DNA from: Alphaproteobacteria bacterium
GTDB taxonomy: Bacteria > Pseudomonadota > Alphaproteobacteria > DSM-16000 > Inquilinaceae
Reading direction: 5' to 3'
Assembly (NCBI GenBank): GCA_009909005.1
Contig: JAAAOG010000038.1
Location: 1 to 40,358, forward strand
Length of the DNA stretch: 40,358 nt
Below the pieces are notes generated by a model. That model had not been told where the DNA came from. It was given only the letters and a program-made list of their open reading frames with translations, and did no database searches. This document shows positions 10,661 through 23,238 of the stretch, in pieces. Every line of letters starts with the position of its first letter. Positions within the stretch are counted from its first letter, which is position 1. The position numbers and the translations under genes were made by a program.

Positions 10661-11182
10661 TCATGCGAAGCTTGATTGGGAACCGGATGTCGCGGGCAAG
10701 TCAAGCAGGACCGGCCGTTTGAGCAGCCGGGGCAGGACGCGCCCCGGGATCGAGCCGGAGGGCACCTGTCCGACCACGGCCATCCCCATGGCCAGGTAGA
10801 ACGGCACCGCGACCGGGTCGGCGTCCGCCGCGATGGCCGTGGCACCCAGGCTGGCCGCCTCGGCCTCCAGCTTCGCCCACAATCGCCGACCGATCCCGCT
10901 TCTCTTGGCGTCCGGCTCGACGAAGAGGGCCCGGATCTCGGCAATCGTGCCGTCCAGGCGCAGCTGAAAGAATCCCTGGACCGAGCCCTCCGCCCCCTCC
11001 TCCAGCCAGGTCCCGGTTCCCGGATCATCGTCGACGCGGTAGGTGAGTTCGGCCCGGCAGGCTTCCATGAACGCTGGGTCATAGCCATTCGAGGCTTTGG
11101 ATCGGAACGCCAGCGCACTCAGCGCCGGGCCCTCCTCCGGCCTCGCCGGGCGCAGAATCCCTGCGATACCTCGCGCGATCAC
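10661..11182 (-). CDS. GNAT family N-acetyltransferase
   Basis: A protein of 173 aa starting with GTG at 11182. The GNAT fold is recognisable: an N-terminal strand ILRPARPEEGPAL, a central strand GFFQLRLDGTIAEIRALFVEP, then the acetyl-CoA loop RSGIGRRLWAKLE (R-x-x-G-I-G/A type) and a final strand with VPFYLAMGM. The family transfers acetyl groups to amines of proteins or small molecules; the acceptor is unknown. The gene starts only 3 bases after the stop of the ParA-like gene, so the two are almost certainly translated from one mRNA. That pairing suggests a shared role, which is inference. The pyrimidine gene downstream is more than 100 bases away. Confidence 0.87.
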   Translation of the reverse strand: MIARGIAGILRPARPEEGPALSALAFRSKASNGYDPAFMEACRAELTYRVDDDPGTGTWLEEGAEGSVQGFFQLRLDGTIAEIRALFVEPDAKRSGIGRRLWAKLEAEAASLGATAIAADADPVAVPFYLAMGMAVVGQVPSGSIPGRVLPRLLKRPVLLDLPATSGSQSSFA

Positions 11183-11185
11183 CGT

Positions 11186-12253
11186 TCAAGGGTCCTGGGG
11201 CATGTCCGCCGGCGAAAGCCGCGGCCCGCTCATCCCGGCTGCCAAGCCGATGCGTTCCATGAGCAGCGCGGCCAGTTCGCGGAAATCCTTGCGGGCATCC
11301 CGGACGGCTGCCGCATGACTCCCGATGGCGCCGTCAGCAACCGTCAAATCGAAAATCGGCTTGCGGGCTTCCTGCGCCATCGGCACCAGGCTCCGAAAAT
11401 GCTTGATGGTCGCCAGACAGTGCGGATCTTGTTGTGGGGTCTCCGGGAAGGGGCCTTCCGATTTTCCGAGAAGGTTTTTCGCATAGGCCTCCGGCATGCG
11501 ATTGACCCATTTGTCATAGGCACGGACCGGCCGGCTTAACCGAACGCTATGCTGCTGCACGACATAGCCGATCGGTTGCATTTGGCCATATGGGAGAGGA
11601 AATTCCGGTTCACTCCAATTATCGAGCGATTTCTTCCAGTCCTGCCGCCATCTTCTTAAAGTTGGCCCCAGATTTCGAAGACCTTGCAGGGAAAACAGGT
11701 CCGCCCCGAGAGGAACAACGACATGATTGGTTGCGATGAGCGCCGATCTGTTGATTGCCCCGAGGTTGGGTCCGACGTCCGCCAGAATAATCGAGGCATC
11801 CATCTGGGCGGCACCGGCCTGCATCACGGTCCAAAACGCTGTCAGGATGCGAAAAGGCCGATACAGATCAGCCGAGCCGCGCGCTTCCGGCCATTCGGAA
11901 GAAAGCCTGTCCTCAAACCATGACAGCGCCAGATCGCCGGGTATCAGGCCAAGCGATGGAGAGATCTTCTGGACCGCAGGCGACAATAGATCTCCAACTT
12001 TCTGAAGAGGCTCAACGCATTTGGAAATCGTCGATCCACGGGAACCATCTTCCCACAGCGCCTCCAGCTGCTCTTCGTCAAGAAATGCCGCCGTCAGATT
12101 CGCCTGAGGATCGAGATCGCAGGCAAGAACGCGATAAGGGTTGCCATCCACATCCTTCATCTGAGACAGCATCCAGGCAAGATGATAGACTAATGACGTT
12201 TTGCCGACGCCGCTCTTGTGATTGAAAAATGTCAAGACTGGCACGGCGATCAT
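11186..12253 (-). CDS. ParA-family (MinD/SIMIBI) ATPase without ParB partner
   Basis: A protein of 355 aa from the ATG at 12253. The deviant Walker A motif HKSGVGKTS lies at residues 12-20 with both the signature and the catalytic lysine. CDLDPQANLT supplies the switch I-like motif, and IILADVGPNLGAINR the Walker B-type strand. PLGADLFSLQGLRNLGPTL resembles the ParA segment before the C-terminal helices. About 100 extra C-terminal residues include QQHSVRLSRPVRAYDKW and FRSLVPMAQEARKP. ParA ATPases dimerise with ATP and pattern cargo on nucleoids. No parB, replication gene or visible parS cluster is near, so plasmid partition is unlikely here. The GNAT gene is directly downstream. Composition is less GC-rich than in the flanking catabolic genes. 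Confidence 0.85.
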   Translation of the reverse strand: MIAVPVLTFFNHKSGVGKTSLVYHLAWMLSQMKDVDGNPYRVLACDLDPQANLTAAFLDEEQLEALWEDGSRGSTISKCVEPLQKVGDLLSPAVQKISPSLGLIPGDLALSWFEDRLSSEWPEARGSADLYRPFRILTAFWTVMQAGAAQMDASIILADVGPNLGAINRSALIATNHVVVPLGADLFSLQGLRNLGPTLRRWRQDWKKSLDNWSEPEFPLPYGQMQPIGYVVQQHSVRLSRPVRAYDKWVNRMPEAYAKNLLGKSEGPFPETPQQDPHCLATIKHFRSLVPMAQEARKPIFDLTVADGAIGSHAAAVRDARKDFRELAALLMERIGLAAGMSGPRLSPADMPQDP

Positions 12254-12428
12254 GCGACCTCTTCTCTTTTGACGCTGCTTTCCTAAAATCACGATTCTAG
12301 ATCATCGGCCCGGGCAACAAGCCAACAGTAGCTACGATCATGGCCGCCTCAGGGTTTGTCTGCTCCTTCCCCAACATCAGCAGCCGCCGCGCGATCAATC
12401 ATTGACCGACCCCGACCACCATCGCCCT

Positions 12429-12457
12429 GCCCGCTCCAGCCGGCGGGGCTTTCCTTT
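12429..12457 (+). terminator. Orphan terminator-like hairpin
   Basis: An imperfect GC-rich stem (GCCCGC at 12429-12434 against GCGGGGC at 12443-12449, one bulged base) is followed by TTTCCTTTT. Read on the plus strand this looks like a Rho-independent terminator, yet no plus-strand gene ends before it. It may be left over from a gene lost when the accessory segment was acquired, or it may mark the segment edge. Nothing else is seen in 12254-12487. Confidence 0.4.
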
Positions 12458-12487
12458 TGTCGACAAGCCAATCATTTCAAAATATGC

Positions 12488-13363
12488 TTAAGAATTCGGG
12501 AGGTCATGTGCATCATCACCCACTTTTACTTTTAGTCGGTCATAATTTTCGTCCCACCATGATTTAAAACCCATTACCCAAATACGGTACCATTCCTCAA
12601 CATTATTATCATAATCACTTCTGATCCCCTGCTCAAAACGACGTTTATTAGTAATTTGAAACCATGGATACAAGGAATTATAAAACAATACAAACATGAG
12701 CTTATCATCCAAAACATCAGATTTCGTCATTTTGTGTAAATCTGAAATAAATTGACACACTTCTAAAAAGCCATCAGCAATTTTATTTTCCTGTCTTGTT
12801 GAAAAGGTGGCTCCTTCGTCAGAATAATAGCTTAAGTAAATTTTCTTTCCTTTTCCGATTCGAAAATCTTTAACATTAGAATGTAAATGATCCCAAGCAT
12901 TCGTTCTGCATTCCCTCATATGAGGGCTCGTCCACCGCTGAAGTACTTGAAACGTTGTGTCACGCTTTTCTTTATTAGTTGCCATCTCTAGCTGTTTTTT
13001 CCAACTCTCCACTTGCTCTTTCTGAGCGCGAGCGGAGGCTGTTATTTCTTTCCTGGTCGCCTGCAATTCTTGATTCTGAAGTATTAGGGTTACCAATATA
13101 GCAATCAATGAGAGAAAACCAAATATTGGATTAACAATACCACCTATAAAATCTCCAAACGCCCCGAGATTCGCAGAGCTGAAAAATAACGACAGAATCA
13201 TTCTTAGTAAGACTAGGCAAAACGGCGTAAATATAGCTAGTATTAGAACAATTGCCATTACGTGTATTAGATCATCATTTGATAATTTTTTCAATAAGTG
13301 CTTTATACGCACAAAGGAATGACTAGCCGAGCACACTTGCTCTTTTTTGTAGCGCTCGCTCAT
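12488..13363 (-). CDS. Two-TM coiled-coil protein, resembling putative phage abortive infection (putAbiC-like) proteins
   Basis: A protein of 291 aa starting MSERYKK at 13363, with an AGGAG ribosome site 8 bases upstream. A longer in-frame start at 13450 lacks such a site. Two membrane helices lie at about residues 33-60 and 72-95. A charged coiled coil at about 96-135 (QNQELQATRKEITASARA and on) follows, then a soluble domain of about 155 residues rich in aromatic amino acids. The element GAFGDFIGGIVNPIFGFLSL followed by a NQEL coiled coil is typical, from memory, of the family annotated as putative phage abortive infection protein. Codon use is wholly unlike the neighbours: two 60-base lines counted by hand gave 38% and 30% GC, against 77% for a line within preT. 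This points to recent transfer. Anti-phage activity is a hypothesis; membrane topology is the firmest part. Confidence 0.7.
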   Translation of the reverse strand: MSERYKKEQVCSASHSFVRIKHLLKKLSNDDLIHVMAIVLILAIFTPFCLVLLRMILSLFFSSANLGAFGDFIGGIVNPIFGFLSLIAILVTLILQNQELQATRKEITASARAQKEQVESWKKQLEMATNKEKRDTTFQVLQRWTSPHMRECRTNAWDHLHSNVKDFRIGKGKKIYLSYYSDEGATFSTRQENKIADGFLEVCQFISDLHKMTKSDVLDDKLMFVLFYNSLYPWFQITNKRRFEQGIRSDYDNNVEEWYRIWVMGFKSWWDENYDRLKVKVGDDAHDLPNS

Positions 13364-13990
13364 GGAAGAGCTCCTGTACCCGCACTGGGAGATAGCATCG
13401 ATATTTGAGCGAATCCACCAGATCACAACAATACCACATAGACAGCGCAAATAGCTCTGCTAAGTAAAACGTCGGACCGAATTAATAATTTTGTTGGGAA
13501 GCCCTCATTAAGTTACTTTCTACCGCAATTTGCAGGAACAGGACAACAAAGCGGGGGAGCTATTGATTGCGACCCTTCGTCGCTGTCCGCTTATGACCGC
13601 ATGCCGATGATGGGATGGTGCCGAGATCTGGCCCTAAACCGACATTCCCCGGATGACACCGAAGTGTGACCGTGATGGTAGCAGAACGGGGCCCATCGGG
13701 GAACCATGATTGGCACAAGCCGATCATCCCGTTTTGCCCGTTTTTTCGTAACCGCGAGAGATGTGAAGTTTTGCTCATCGACCTCCCCCGGTCAGAGCTA
13801 ATTGAAATTTTGATGCGTGAAGCGAATGGTTAATTAGGTGCCTAAGGTTTGACCAATGTGCCTCCGATCAAGGCCGCGCAGCCGGCGCCTTTTTGCGGTG
13901 CGGGCCGGGGCATTCCATGGCACGCTTCTCGCTTGAAAACGGGTGGGCGGACACAAGGCCGCCGGCCCAAACACAAGGGAGAGCAAAAAC
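13364..13990. other. Intergenic region between the AT-rich gene and the ABC importer operon
   Basis: No convincing gene is seen in these 627 bases. A 72-codon open frame on the minus strand (13560-13778) lacks family features and is probably chance. AT-rich sequence continues from the Abi-like gene to about 13540, then a mixed-composition stretch follows, and from about 13860 the sequence is GC-rich host DNA again. The right edge of the accessory segment therefore probably lies at 13540-13860. The promoter of the importer operon should lie within the last 150 bases. Confidence 0.5.
13834..13845. promoter_or_regulatory. Short inverted repeat upstream of the importer operon, possible operator
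   Basis: TTAGG-TG-CCTAA is an inverted repeat with a 2-base spacer, sitting in AT-rich DNA about 145 bases before the ATG of the binding-protein gene. Its place and symmetry would suit a dimeric regulator of the nucleoside-uptake operon. No regulator gene is adjacent, and the element occurs once, so this is a weak call. Confidence 0.25.
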
Positions 13991-14995
13991 ATGGCGACGA
14001 GGCGAGGATTTGTGCAGGCCGGGCTCGGGGCGGCCCTCGGGCTGGCGGCGGCGATGGGCGCGGGCGGCCCGGCGCTCGCCCAGGAGGCGGAGCCAATCGA
14101 CGTCGCGGCGATCTACACCGTGCCGGTCGAGCAGCAATGGGTCAGCCGCATCCACCTGGCCCTGCAGGCGGCCGAGGAGCGCGGCGACGTCACCTATACC
14201 TTTTCCGAGAACGTCGCCAACACCGATTATGAGCGCGTGATGCGCGAATATGCCGACCAGGGCATCGACCTGATCGTCGGCGAGGTCTTCGGGGTCGAGC
14301 GCGCCGCCCGCGAGGTCGCCGCCGACTATCCCGACACCGCCTTCCTGATGGGCTCCAGCTTCGGCCCCGCCGGCGAGAACTTCTCGGTCTTCGACAATTG
14401 GATCCACGAGCCGTCCTACCTGACCGGCATGGTCGCCGGCTCGATGACCGAGAGCAACCTCATCGGCATGGTCGGCGGCTATCCCATCCCGGAGGTCAAC
14501 CGGCTGATGCATGCCTTCATGGACGGGGCGCGCGAGGTCAACCCGGAGGTCCAATTCCTGGTCAGCTTCATCGGCAGCTGGTACGACCCCCCGGCCGCCC
14601 AGGAGGCCGCCTTCGCCATGATCGATAGCGGCGCCGACATCATGTATGCCGAGCGTTACGGGGTCTCCGACGCGGCCGAGGAGCGCGGCGTCTACGCCAT
14701 CGGCAATGTCATCGACACCCAGGAGGAATATCCCGGCACCGTGATCGCCAGCGCCCTCTGGCACATGGAGCCGACCATCGACCGCGCCATCGCCGCCGTC
14801 CGGGATGGCAGCTTCACCGCCGAGGATTACGGCCCCTACAGCTACATGGCGCATGGCGGCGGCTCGCTGGCGCCGATGAGCGCCGACATCATTCCCGGCG
14901 ACGTCCTGGACATGGTCGAGGCCAAGCGCCAGGAGATCCTCGACGGCCTGTTCCGGGTCAATGTCAACGACACCGAGCCCCGCTCGACCCGGTAA
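13991..14995 (+). CDS. BMP family ABC transporter substrate-binding protein
   Basis: A protein of 334 aa from the ATG at 13991, with GGGAGAG just upstream. The N-terminus has a Tat-like signal, TRRGFVQAGLG, followed by a hydrophobic Ala/Gly run and an ALAQEA cleavage region near residue 31. The mature part has the basic-membrane-protein (Med/TmpC/PnrA) fold: AAIYTVPVEQQWVSRIH, the hinge DLIVGEVFG, SFGPAGENFSVFDNWIHEPSYLTGMVAG and GMVGGYPIPEVNRLMHAF. Known members bind purine or pyrimidine nucleosides, though some bind other ligands. It is the first gene of a plus-strand operon with ATPase, two permeases and a codA-like gene, which favours a nucleoside or nucleobase ligand. The ATPase gene begins 6 bases after its stop. 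Confidence 0.9.
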   Translation: MATRRGFVQAGLGAALGLAAAMGAGGPALAQEAEPIDVAAIYTVPVEQQWVSRIHLALQAAEERGDVTYTFSENVANTDYERVMREYADQGIDLIVGEVFGVERAAREVAADYPDTAFLMGSSFGPAGENFSVFDNWIHEPSYLTGMVAGSMTESNLIGMVGGYPIPEVNRLMHAFMDGAREVNPEVQFLVSFIGSWYDPPAAQEAAFAMIDSGADIMYAERYGVSDAAEERGVYAIGNVIDTQEEYPGTVIASALWHMEPTIDRAIAAVRDGSFTAEDYGPYSYMAHGGGSLAPMSADIIPGDVLDMVEAKRQEILDGLFRVNVNDTEPRSTR

Positions 14996-21477: not shown

Positions 21478-21819
21478 CTCCGCCCCCTCTTCAACCCTGC
21501 CCGGATCTGACCCGGGTCTCAGACTATCATTTTGCAGTCACCCTGAAAGCCATGTGTGCATGCAGAACATGTCGCTCTCGCGGATCGTTTTTGCCAATGG
21601 AGGCACAGCAGAATCAGATACTTGGACAATCCTTTCACCACCTCTGAAAACAAGAATTAACCTTAAGCACCCATTAGCATTAATAAAAAATACTTTATTA
21701 CTGATGGTTTCTCGGGTATGTCTCAAATTTTATACGCAAGTTAATTGTTTTGAAACTGCCTGAAGACAAGATCACTCACGACACCGAATTCACCCACACG
21801 CGAAACGGAGCGCAGCACG
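21478..21819. other. AT-rich intergenic region between divergent genes
   Basis: These 342 bases separate the divergent DUF294 and patatin-like genes and must carry both promoters. GACCCGGGTC at 21509-21518 is a perfect 10-base palindrome close to the DUF294 side. From about 21600 the composition turns AT-rich (33% GC in a hand-counted 60-base line at 21661-21720), which matches the start of the patatin-like gene rather than the host background. The open frames here are short and carry no family features. I see no RNA gene. Confidence 0.5.
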
Positions 21820-23238
21820 ATGAAAAGAGCGATTGTCCTGGCAGGCGGAGGTCCCGCAATTGGTCTGAGCATCGGCGCCCTAAAGCGCCTTGAAGAAGAA
21901 TCCGACATCACCTTCGATATTGCCTCAACAGCATGCATCGGCGCCTGGCTGGCCGCCACCTATTACCAAGCCCCTAAGAGCGAGAGACTGGCCACGACGG
22001 AGCGCTTTTTCCGTAAGGTCTTTCGCCCAGAGACCGTTTACTCCCGCTTTCCCATTGCGGCGTGCTTCGCACCAAACATCTCGAAGATGATTCATAACAC
22101 CGCGGCCTTCGCGCTAAACCCGGACACCTACCGGAACCTCGTCGTGCCGGAAATCATCCGGGACGCAACCGAAGACTTGCTGCGCTTTGCCAGCGATCCG
22201 CGGCAATGGACAGAGGCCAATGCCAATACCCTTATGCTCAACAGCGTCCTGGCAGCGAACCCTCTGACCCGGTTCTTCACCAGCATGGCGTTTCTGACAA
22301 AACACACCGGTTTAGCCCAGATTTTCTATCCGGACAGCCCGCTTTTAGACCAGATCGACTTCAATGCCCTGAGCGGCCCAGACACACCCATCATCTATCA
22401 TAACGCATTTAACCTGACGCATAATCGCATGGATCTGTTCTGCAACAAGCCTGAGCTTGGTTTGCCGCCGATTTCCGGGCAGTCCCTGTGCGGTGGATCT
22501 GCGCTGCCGTTCCTGGCGGATAAGGTGGAAATCGATGGTCAAGTCTTCTGCGAAGGCGCGACAGTCGAACCAGTCAATTTCCGCGGTCTCTTGGAAAACC
22601 ACCCCGACCTTGACGAAATCTGGGTCAGCCGCATCCTTGATCGCAGCCAAATTCGTGAACCGGAAAACCTTTACGAGGCTCTTAACAATCTTGTCACAAT
22701 TTTAGCAGCCAGCAAAAGTCAGGACAACGTGACGCTTTTCAAACACGAGTTGGAGCGAAGCGGCAGGAACGTCAAGTTAATCGAAATTCCCGTCGCATCA
22801 GACATCGAGTATCATTGGACCCATGAGAATCTCGATCGCGGTATAGAGCTGGGTTATGCGGCGACATCGCAGACGATCGCCGAATACCGGGCCGACATCC
22901 GCCGGGCCGAGGAGGAACCGCACCGCAGCCCGCGCCTTGCCCTCGTCAAGTCCGGCGACATCGAGACGGCGGCCCCGACCCCGATCCCTCACCCGATCGC
23001 CGGGCCATTGCTGCCCGCACGCGCCGCGTCGGGGCGTCCCGGCCAAGCCCGCAGCGTTCCGGCTCATGCCGCTCCGGGTCACACCGCCCCGGCCCGCAGC
23101 ATCCCGCCGCTGCCGCAACCGGCCGCACTTCCGCCGCGCCGCGCGGTCTCGGGCGCGCGCGGTGCGGGCCGCGGCCCCCTCCGCCGCGTGACAAGACCGG
23201 TTCGACGCACGGGCCGCCTGTCGCGCCACGTCGCCTGA
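21820..23238 (+). CDS. Patatin-like protein with Cys/Glu in place of the Ser/Asp dyad and a basic C-terminal tail
   Basis: A protein of 472 aa. The N-terminus MKRAIVLAGGGPAIGLSIGALKRLEE is the patatin oxyanion-hole region. The nucleophile elbow, normally G-x-S-x-G, reads T-A-C-I-G at residues 37-41, which puts Cys39 at the catalytic place. The second catalytic motif, normally D-G-G/A, reads E-G-A at 245-247 (VFCEGATVEPVNF). The conserved body (YSRFPI, FYPDSPLLDQIDF, HPDLDEIWVSRI) suggests a coherent subfamily and not a decayed gene. From about residue 357 the protein becomes a Pro/Ala/Arg/Gly-rich, probably disordered tail of about 115 residues ending in RRTGRLSRHVA, and the DNA turns GC-rich at the same point. 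Lipid hydrolysis is therefore uncertain. The start has CGGAG upstream. Confidence 0.8.
   Translation: MKRAIVLAGGGPAIGLSIGALKRLEEESDITFDIASTACIGAWLAATYYQAPKSERLATTERFFRKVFRPETVYSRFPIAACFAPNISKMIHNTAAFALNPDTYRNLVVPEIIRDATEDLLRFASDPRQWTEANANTLMLNSVLAANPLTRFFTSMAFLTKHTGLAQIFYPDSPLLDQIDFNALSGPDTPIIYHNAFNLTHNRMDLFCNKPELGLPPISGQSLCGGSALPFLADKVEIDGQVFCEGATVEPVNFRGLLENHPDLDEIWVSRILDRSQIREPENLYEALNNLVTILAASKSQDNVTLFKHELERSGRNVKLIEIPVASDIEYHWTHENLDRGIELGYAATSQTIAEYRADIRRAEEEPHRSPRLALVKSGDIETAAPTPIPHPIAGPLLPARAASGRPGQARSVPAHAAPGHTAPARSIPPLPQPAALPPRRAVSGARGAGRGPLRRVTRPVRRTGRLSRHVA

Follow-up and report, generated by a model that had tools for sequence, protein, structure and literature searches.

An AT-rich gene of foreign composition encodes a putative membrane-anchored phage-defence protein related to putAbiC-type proteins through its N-terminus

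Results

A compositionally foreign gene between two metabolic clusters

We analyzed a stretch of 40,358 nt (the window), whose minus strand carries at 12488..13363 the gene of a 291-aa membrane-anchored protein, hereafter P0001. The frame runs from ATG to stop over 291 codons without internal stops. The open frame would also allow a TTG start at 13450 (320 aa), and we consider the ATG at 13363 the better start because a ribosome-binding-like AGGAG lies 7 bases upstream of it. The gene is isolated between two metabolic clusters, the 627 bp upstream of it hold no recognised gene, and none of its neighbours in the window was recognised as a known defence gene. On the same strand follow a ParA-like ATPase gene (11186..12292, probable start ATG 12253) at a distance of 234 bp from its likely start and, 3 bp after the end of the latter, a GNAT acetyltransferase gene (10661-11182).

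The first-pass annotation had described the gene as strongly AT-rich from hand counts of 38% and 30% GC in two 60-base lines. Our recount gave 38% at 12540 and 30% at both 12660 and 12840, and the whole gene has a GC of 37.2% and a GC3 of 34.6%, compared to 65.2% GC for the window. Windows of 876 nt across the stretch had a mean GC of 65.2% (sd 6.0%), with 51.7% as the lowest value outside 11700-14200, and the preT gene overall reached 71.5%. The codon-usage distance was 1.15 for the P0001 gene and 0.11-0.19 for six neighbouring genes, so that its distance from the neighbouring metabolic genes is at least about six-fold that of these genes from their own mean. As for distribution, the gene was present in one of the 17 genomes of its family (the order search returned the same 17), and any relative at E ≤0.001 was present in 7 of the 385 class genomes, a count that includes its own genome. 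At the DNA level, positions 12200-14000 had no counterpart among plasmid or phage records. Taken together, the foreign composition and codon usage and the patchy distribution support the horizontal acquisition that had been proposed. The gene is real and foreign, and it is probably functional, the intact frame and the ribosome-binding site suggesting that it is still used.

Elsewhere in the window, a patatin-like phospholipase gene (21820-23238, plus strand) was somewhat atypical in codon usage (distance 0.48), with a GC dip at 21501-22500.

P0001 shares a two-helix GDFxGG module with putAbiC-type proteins

Hydropathy, AlphaFold2 and homology delimit an N-terminal module (residues 30-145; 12929..13276, minus strand) made of two hydrophobic helices, a GDFIGG turn and a coiled coil, followed by a nearly orphan, soluble C-terminal domain (residues 146-291; 12491..12928, minus strand). 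The hydropathy peaks lie at residues 35-53 and 76-94, and AlphaFold2, run on 18 aligned sequences, modelled helices at 29-60 and 64-144, the second of which continues into the coil, with the GDFIGG motif at the turn into this second helix. Block-mean pLDDT was 68-96 across the module; confidence was good at about 70-140 and low beyond 160, with a mean pLDDT of 69 and a pTM of 0.41 for the full model. The architecture foreseen from the sequence, namely two transmembrane helices, a coiled coil and a soluble C-terminal domain, was therefore recovered by hydropathy and modelling, at low confidence for the soluble part. The net charge is +3 N-terminal to helix 1, -1 at the turn and +3 over residues 95-145, a pattern that suggests that both ends face the inside of the cell. 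A Foldseek search of the full model against a viral library and the PDB gave no match at E ≤0.001, the VIA rows had Z ≤5.1 (EDS1-PAD4 and others), a range common for helical models, and a sequence search of solved structures returned only two DnaA entries (E 0.044). A Pfam match to Colicin_V (E 0.0008, 19.9 bits against a cut-off of 29.3) was taken as a hydrophobic-helix artefact. No SLATT model (2TM effectors) was among the Pfam matches; SLATT_5 was encoded by one neighbour gene of a P0001 relative.

The first-pass annotation had also linked the GDFIGGIVNPIFGFLSL segment to the putative abortive-infection family, and this resemblance stood for one end of the protein. The segment sits inside the two-helix module, and hhalign aligned the module (query, a three-row P0001 alignment) with 20 aligned putAbiC-type proteins at E 7.2e-20, the alignment ending with the module. 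Against the full-length putAbiC-type profile, P0001 scored 73.5 bits over residues 33-137. P0001 thus possesses the two-helix GDFxGG module, which lies outside the Pfam model, and this module is homologous to the N-termini of putAbiC proteins. By contrast, the proposed HMM check failed: P0001 had no match to PF16872 even at E ≤1, and it is not a member of putAbiC as defined by that model. PF16872 spans only the C-terminal 80 residues of putAbiC proteins, where P0001 differs or is highly diverged, which accounts for the missing match. Genome searches with PF16872 (1 and 190 genomes) gave no hit, and control genomes likewise gave none, so that this negative carries little weight. P0001 matched no PADLOC model and no NCBIfam family above cut-off; for AbiC (PDLC02343) and AbiP (PDLC02351) this held up to E ≤1.

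Relatives of P0001 were found at 15 genome-contig loci and 8 viral-contig loci, in 4 plasmid records and in 6 other genomes of the class; among phages, the two records found belong to one phage, the temperate Leptospira phage LE1. Most relatives match within residues 20-168 only, which corresponds to the two helices and the coil. PF16872 was carried by 6 of 10 module-sharing relatives scanned, always in about the C-terminal third, and 5 of 9 relatives scanned matched PADLOC AbiC and/or AbiP, weakly.

Relatives carrying the module often lie beside defence genes

As proposed in the first-pass annotation, we checked whether the relatives have known defence genes as neighbours, and several do. At least 6 of the 15 genome loci have a PADLOC defence gene (E ≤1e-8) near or beside the relative; this is a lower bound obtained from ten neighbours hand-picked as likely defence genes, 7 of which matched, so that 7/10 is not to be read as a rate. 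Several of these neighbours are at operon spacing. PtuA (Septu) lies two genes upstream of the relative at L002, AbiU lies 1.7 kb away at L013, and a bSEFIR gene lies 28 bp upstream at L015. In Sunxiuqinia (L006, 7998-12798), the relative is followed by GajA and GajB with a 9-bp gap to the GajA frame. In two Bacteroidota (L012:7869-11481 and L016:7833-11400), an NsnA/GmrSD-like gene starts one base past the stop of the relative. We observed in passing that the two-helix GDFIGG protein of Sunxiuqinia could represent a third gene in a Gabija operon, and that the two-helix gene with a GmrSD/NsnA-like gene forms a repeated two-gene arrangement in the two Bacteroidota. On a Cupriavidus plasmid (L017), a relative annotated 'putative phage abortive infection protein' adjoins DUF3375, DUF4194 and SbcC/MukB-like genes, which we take to be Wadjet components.

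We also pooled Pfam counts over the neighbours at the 15 genome loci, 49 ORFs of the viral loci being left out. Of 131 neighbour ORFs, 106 were scanned (omitted were 22 more distant ORFs and 3 that belonged to the relative), and GmrSD_N came on top with 3 of 106 among the best 25 of 263 families. The control from the same genomes comprised 114 ORFs from 11 stretches (114 of 117 scanned, three very long or cut ones, and thereby all of stretch L096, being dropped); its hits, pooled across loci, showed one methyltransferase and generic families among the best 25 of 67. As most of the relatives with these neighbourhoods have PF16872, the inference to P0001 runs by way of the shared N-terminal module.

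The C-terminal domain is nearly orphan

The C-terminal domain of P0001 gave no above-cut-off match in Pfam, PADLOC or NCBIfam, and its model (mean pLDDT 54.7) was too poor for a structure search. Searched alone, it was found in no other genome among 398 and matched no plasmid at E ≤1; a search of viral contigs with an alignment of the domain yielded no relative. Two candidates were rejected. First, a diverged PF16872 domain was considered on the likeness of FYNSLYP in P0001 to FYNGLFP in L019, and the putAbiC profile score of the P0001 C-terminus was indistinct from controls: 19 of 500 shuffled sequences and 78 of 1000 chimeras scored at least as high. Second, the C-terminus (W-SP-MRE-R, then a helical stretch) resembled DUF4760 (PF15956) by eye; hmmscan gave no match and hhalign against four members gave E 0.29, and P0001 and L044 share only the short stretch W-x-x-P-x-M-R-E-x-R.

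The single clear C-terminal relative in the class genomes was L031 (P0001 residues 45-257, E 1e-8), and two weaker ones, L048 and L049, were found only by a P0001+L031 profile. From our reading of the translations, L031 neighbours a transporter, a GST-like protein and an acyltransferase-like protein, while L048 and L049, from two species, lie between HAD hydrolase and peroxiredoxin/cytochrome bd genes. These housekeeping-type surroundings of the three genes offered no defence context. They would fit a non-defence membrane protein, in which the module is a general anchor and P0001 groups with these apparently stable chromosomal genes, perhaps related to stress; the GC of L048 and L049 (58-59%, surroundings 59-60%) agrees with this. 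However, the P0001 gene has a foreign composition and is missing in 16 of the 17 family genomes, and its GDFIGG motif places it with the putAbiC group, whereas L048 and L049 carry GAMFGA at that position. We therefore regard a non-defence role as unlikely.

No mobile-element border detected around the gene

No mobile-element border was found around the P0001 gene, the repeats there being short, two-copy and of a kind often due to chance, and no att-like repeat was found. The preT-side genes were not beside the BMP gene in 10 stretches of the family, and an empty site was not definable. Alternatively, the P0001 gene may be a chance survivor of a decayed foreign element, originally belonging to a phage or plasmid and encoding, for instance, a superinfection-exclusion protein. 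The occurrence of the module at the viral-contig loci and in phage LE1, and the intact but isolated position of the frame, are consistent with this origin. However, in addition to the missing att-like repeat, no phage or integrase family (Pfam) was found among ten window proteins scanned, and the frame and its ribosome-binding site suggest a gene still in use. Overall, this origin appears improbable.

Relatives of the neighbouring ParA-like ATPase pair with other partners

The ParA-like ATPase (AAA_31, E 3.7e-20; phrog_164, E 3.4e-38) is also encoded by a compositionally foreign gene (GC 57.0%, GC3 62.1%, codon distance 0.63), and the GNAT acetyltransferase gene is mildly atypical (codon distance 0.37). 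Relatives of the ATPase in other class members have 45-52% identity. Ten partner genes, chosen by hand, were scanned: a SLFN_AlbA_2/HATPase_c_4 gene directly upstream overlaps the start of the relatives within the class (3 of 3 scanned), and the end of more distant relatives is overlapped by a SIR2_2 gene (6 of 6) or, in one case, by a HEPN gene (1 of 1). A PADLOC scan of ten proteins of these loci gave the ATPase no full-length model, its only match being to the P-loop part of PDC-M28B. Other relatives were found in the immunity region of Salmonella phage ST160 and in prophage Pf1. No homologue of the GNAT acetyltransferase was found near 19 other ParA-like loci. A literature search on ParA with SIR2 or defence listed no title on such a pair among its matches. 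The family looks like two-gene defence or toxin modules, of which we found no description, and the ATPase may be a better lead than P0001. Between the two genes, a terminator-like hairpin with a T-run lies at 12430-12449 on the plus strand; no plus-strand gene was recognised ahead of it, and such sites are no more frequent in the region than expected by chance.

The least probable reading makes P0001 and the ATPase, which share a strand and a foreign codon usage, a two-gene system with the ATPase as sensor or regulator and P0001 in the place of the SIR2, HEPN or Schlafen-AlbA_2 effector: the genes are separated by 234 bp here and overlap elsewhere, they differ by 20 GC points, no ParA-like gene was near the examined P0001 relatives, and, since none of the 19 ParA-like loci had a P0001-like gene, the pair is possible but unsupported.

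Discussion

The first-pass annotation had proposed a membrane-anchored anti-phage effector. The two-helix anchor and the defence neighbours of the relatives argue for this reading; the absent PF16872 and PADLOC matches and the non-defence surroundings of the C-terminal relatives argue against it. We favour, with moderate confidence, a horizontally acquired, single-gene, membrane-anchored effector of the AbiC/AbiP kind with an exchanged C-terminal domain. A role of P0001 in phage defence, with a mode of action similar to that of Abi membrane proteins, is plausible; we infer its anti-phage activity from the company of its relatives.

As such an effector, P0001 would be held in the inner membrane by its N-terminal helix pair with both ends inside, and the GDFIGG turn would lie at the outer face or at the start of helix 2. 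The coiled coil may bring about oligomerisation, and the cytosolic C-terminal domain could sense a phage product or nucleic acid. Once activated, P0001 might disturb the membrane or block phage replication, which would leave the infected cell with a low yield of phages. As described in PMC10127798, AbiP and PdpSau are anchored in the membrane, their C-terminus being DNA-binding or OB-fold-like, and in infected cells PdpSau alters the potential and permeability of the membrane. By analogy with these two proteins, a membrane-held protein whose cytosolic recognition domain responds to infection would be the most likely form.

A broader proposal, which we consider quite unlikely, is that the GDFxGG module serves as an interchangeable membrane unit for output or sensing in Gabija, Septu, GmrSD, SEFIR and Wadjet operons with varying C-termini, P0001 having acquired a new recognition domain that is possibly controlled by the ParA-like ATPase. 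If the reading of P0001 as an anti-phage effector is true, the putAbiC membrane module would be common to proteins missed by database models, because Pfam models the putAbiC C-terminus only. Searches with the GDFxGG module would then reveal overlooked defence proteins, including accessory genes attached to Gabija and GmrSD-like operons.

Among known systems, putAbiC (PF16872) proteins, on which our literature search found no paper, resemble P0001 in the N-terminal two-helix, GDFxGG and coiled-coil module and in a size near 300 aa, but differ by their C-terminal 80-residue PF16872 domain, undetected in P0001. The function-unknown profile phrog_8999 matches residues 34-116 (E 4.5e-16), and P0001 covers only the N-terminal third of its 270 positions. 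L031, L048 and L049 are the only proteins found with a C-terminal domain similar to that of P0001, but they have non-defence neighbours and an altered GDFIGG motif, and L048 and L049 are GC-typical. The lactococcal AbiC and AbiP matched P0001 in neither PADLOC model at E ≤1, yet they share with it a membrane anchor and a cytosolic C-terminal domain (for AbiP, as described in PMC10127798). Finally, PdpSau of Staphylococcus prophages, compared by description only from PMC10127798, has one N-terminal helix where P0001 has two and a reported OB-fold-like C-terminus, but it resembles P0001 as a 278-aa protein with an N-terminal membrane anchor and a cytosolic C-terminus, and it acts in abortive infection.
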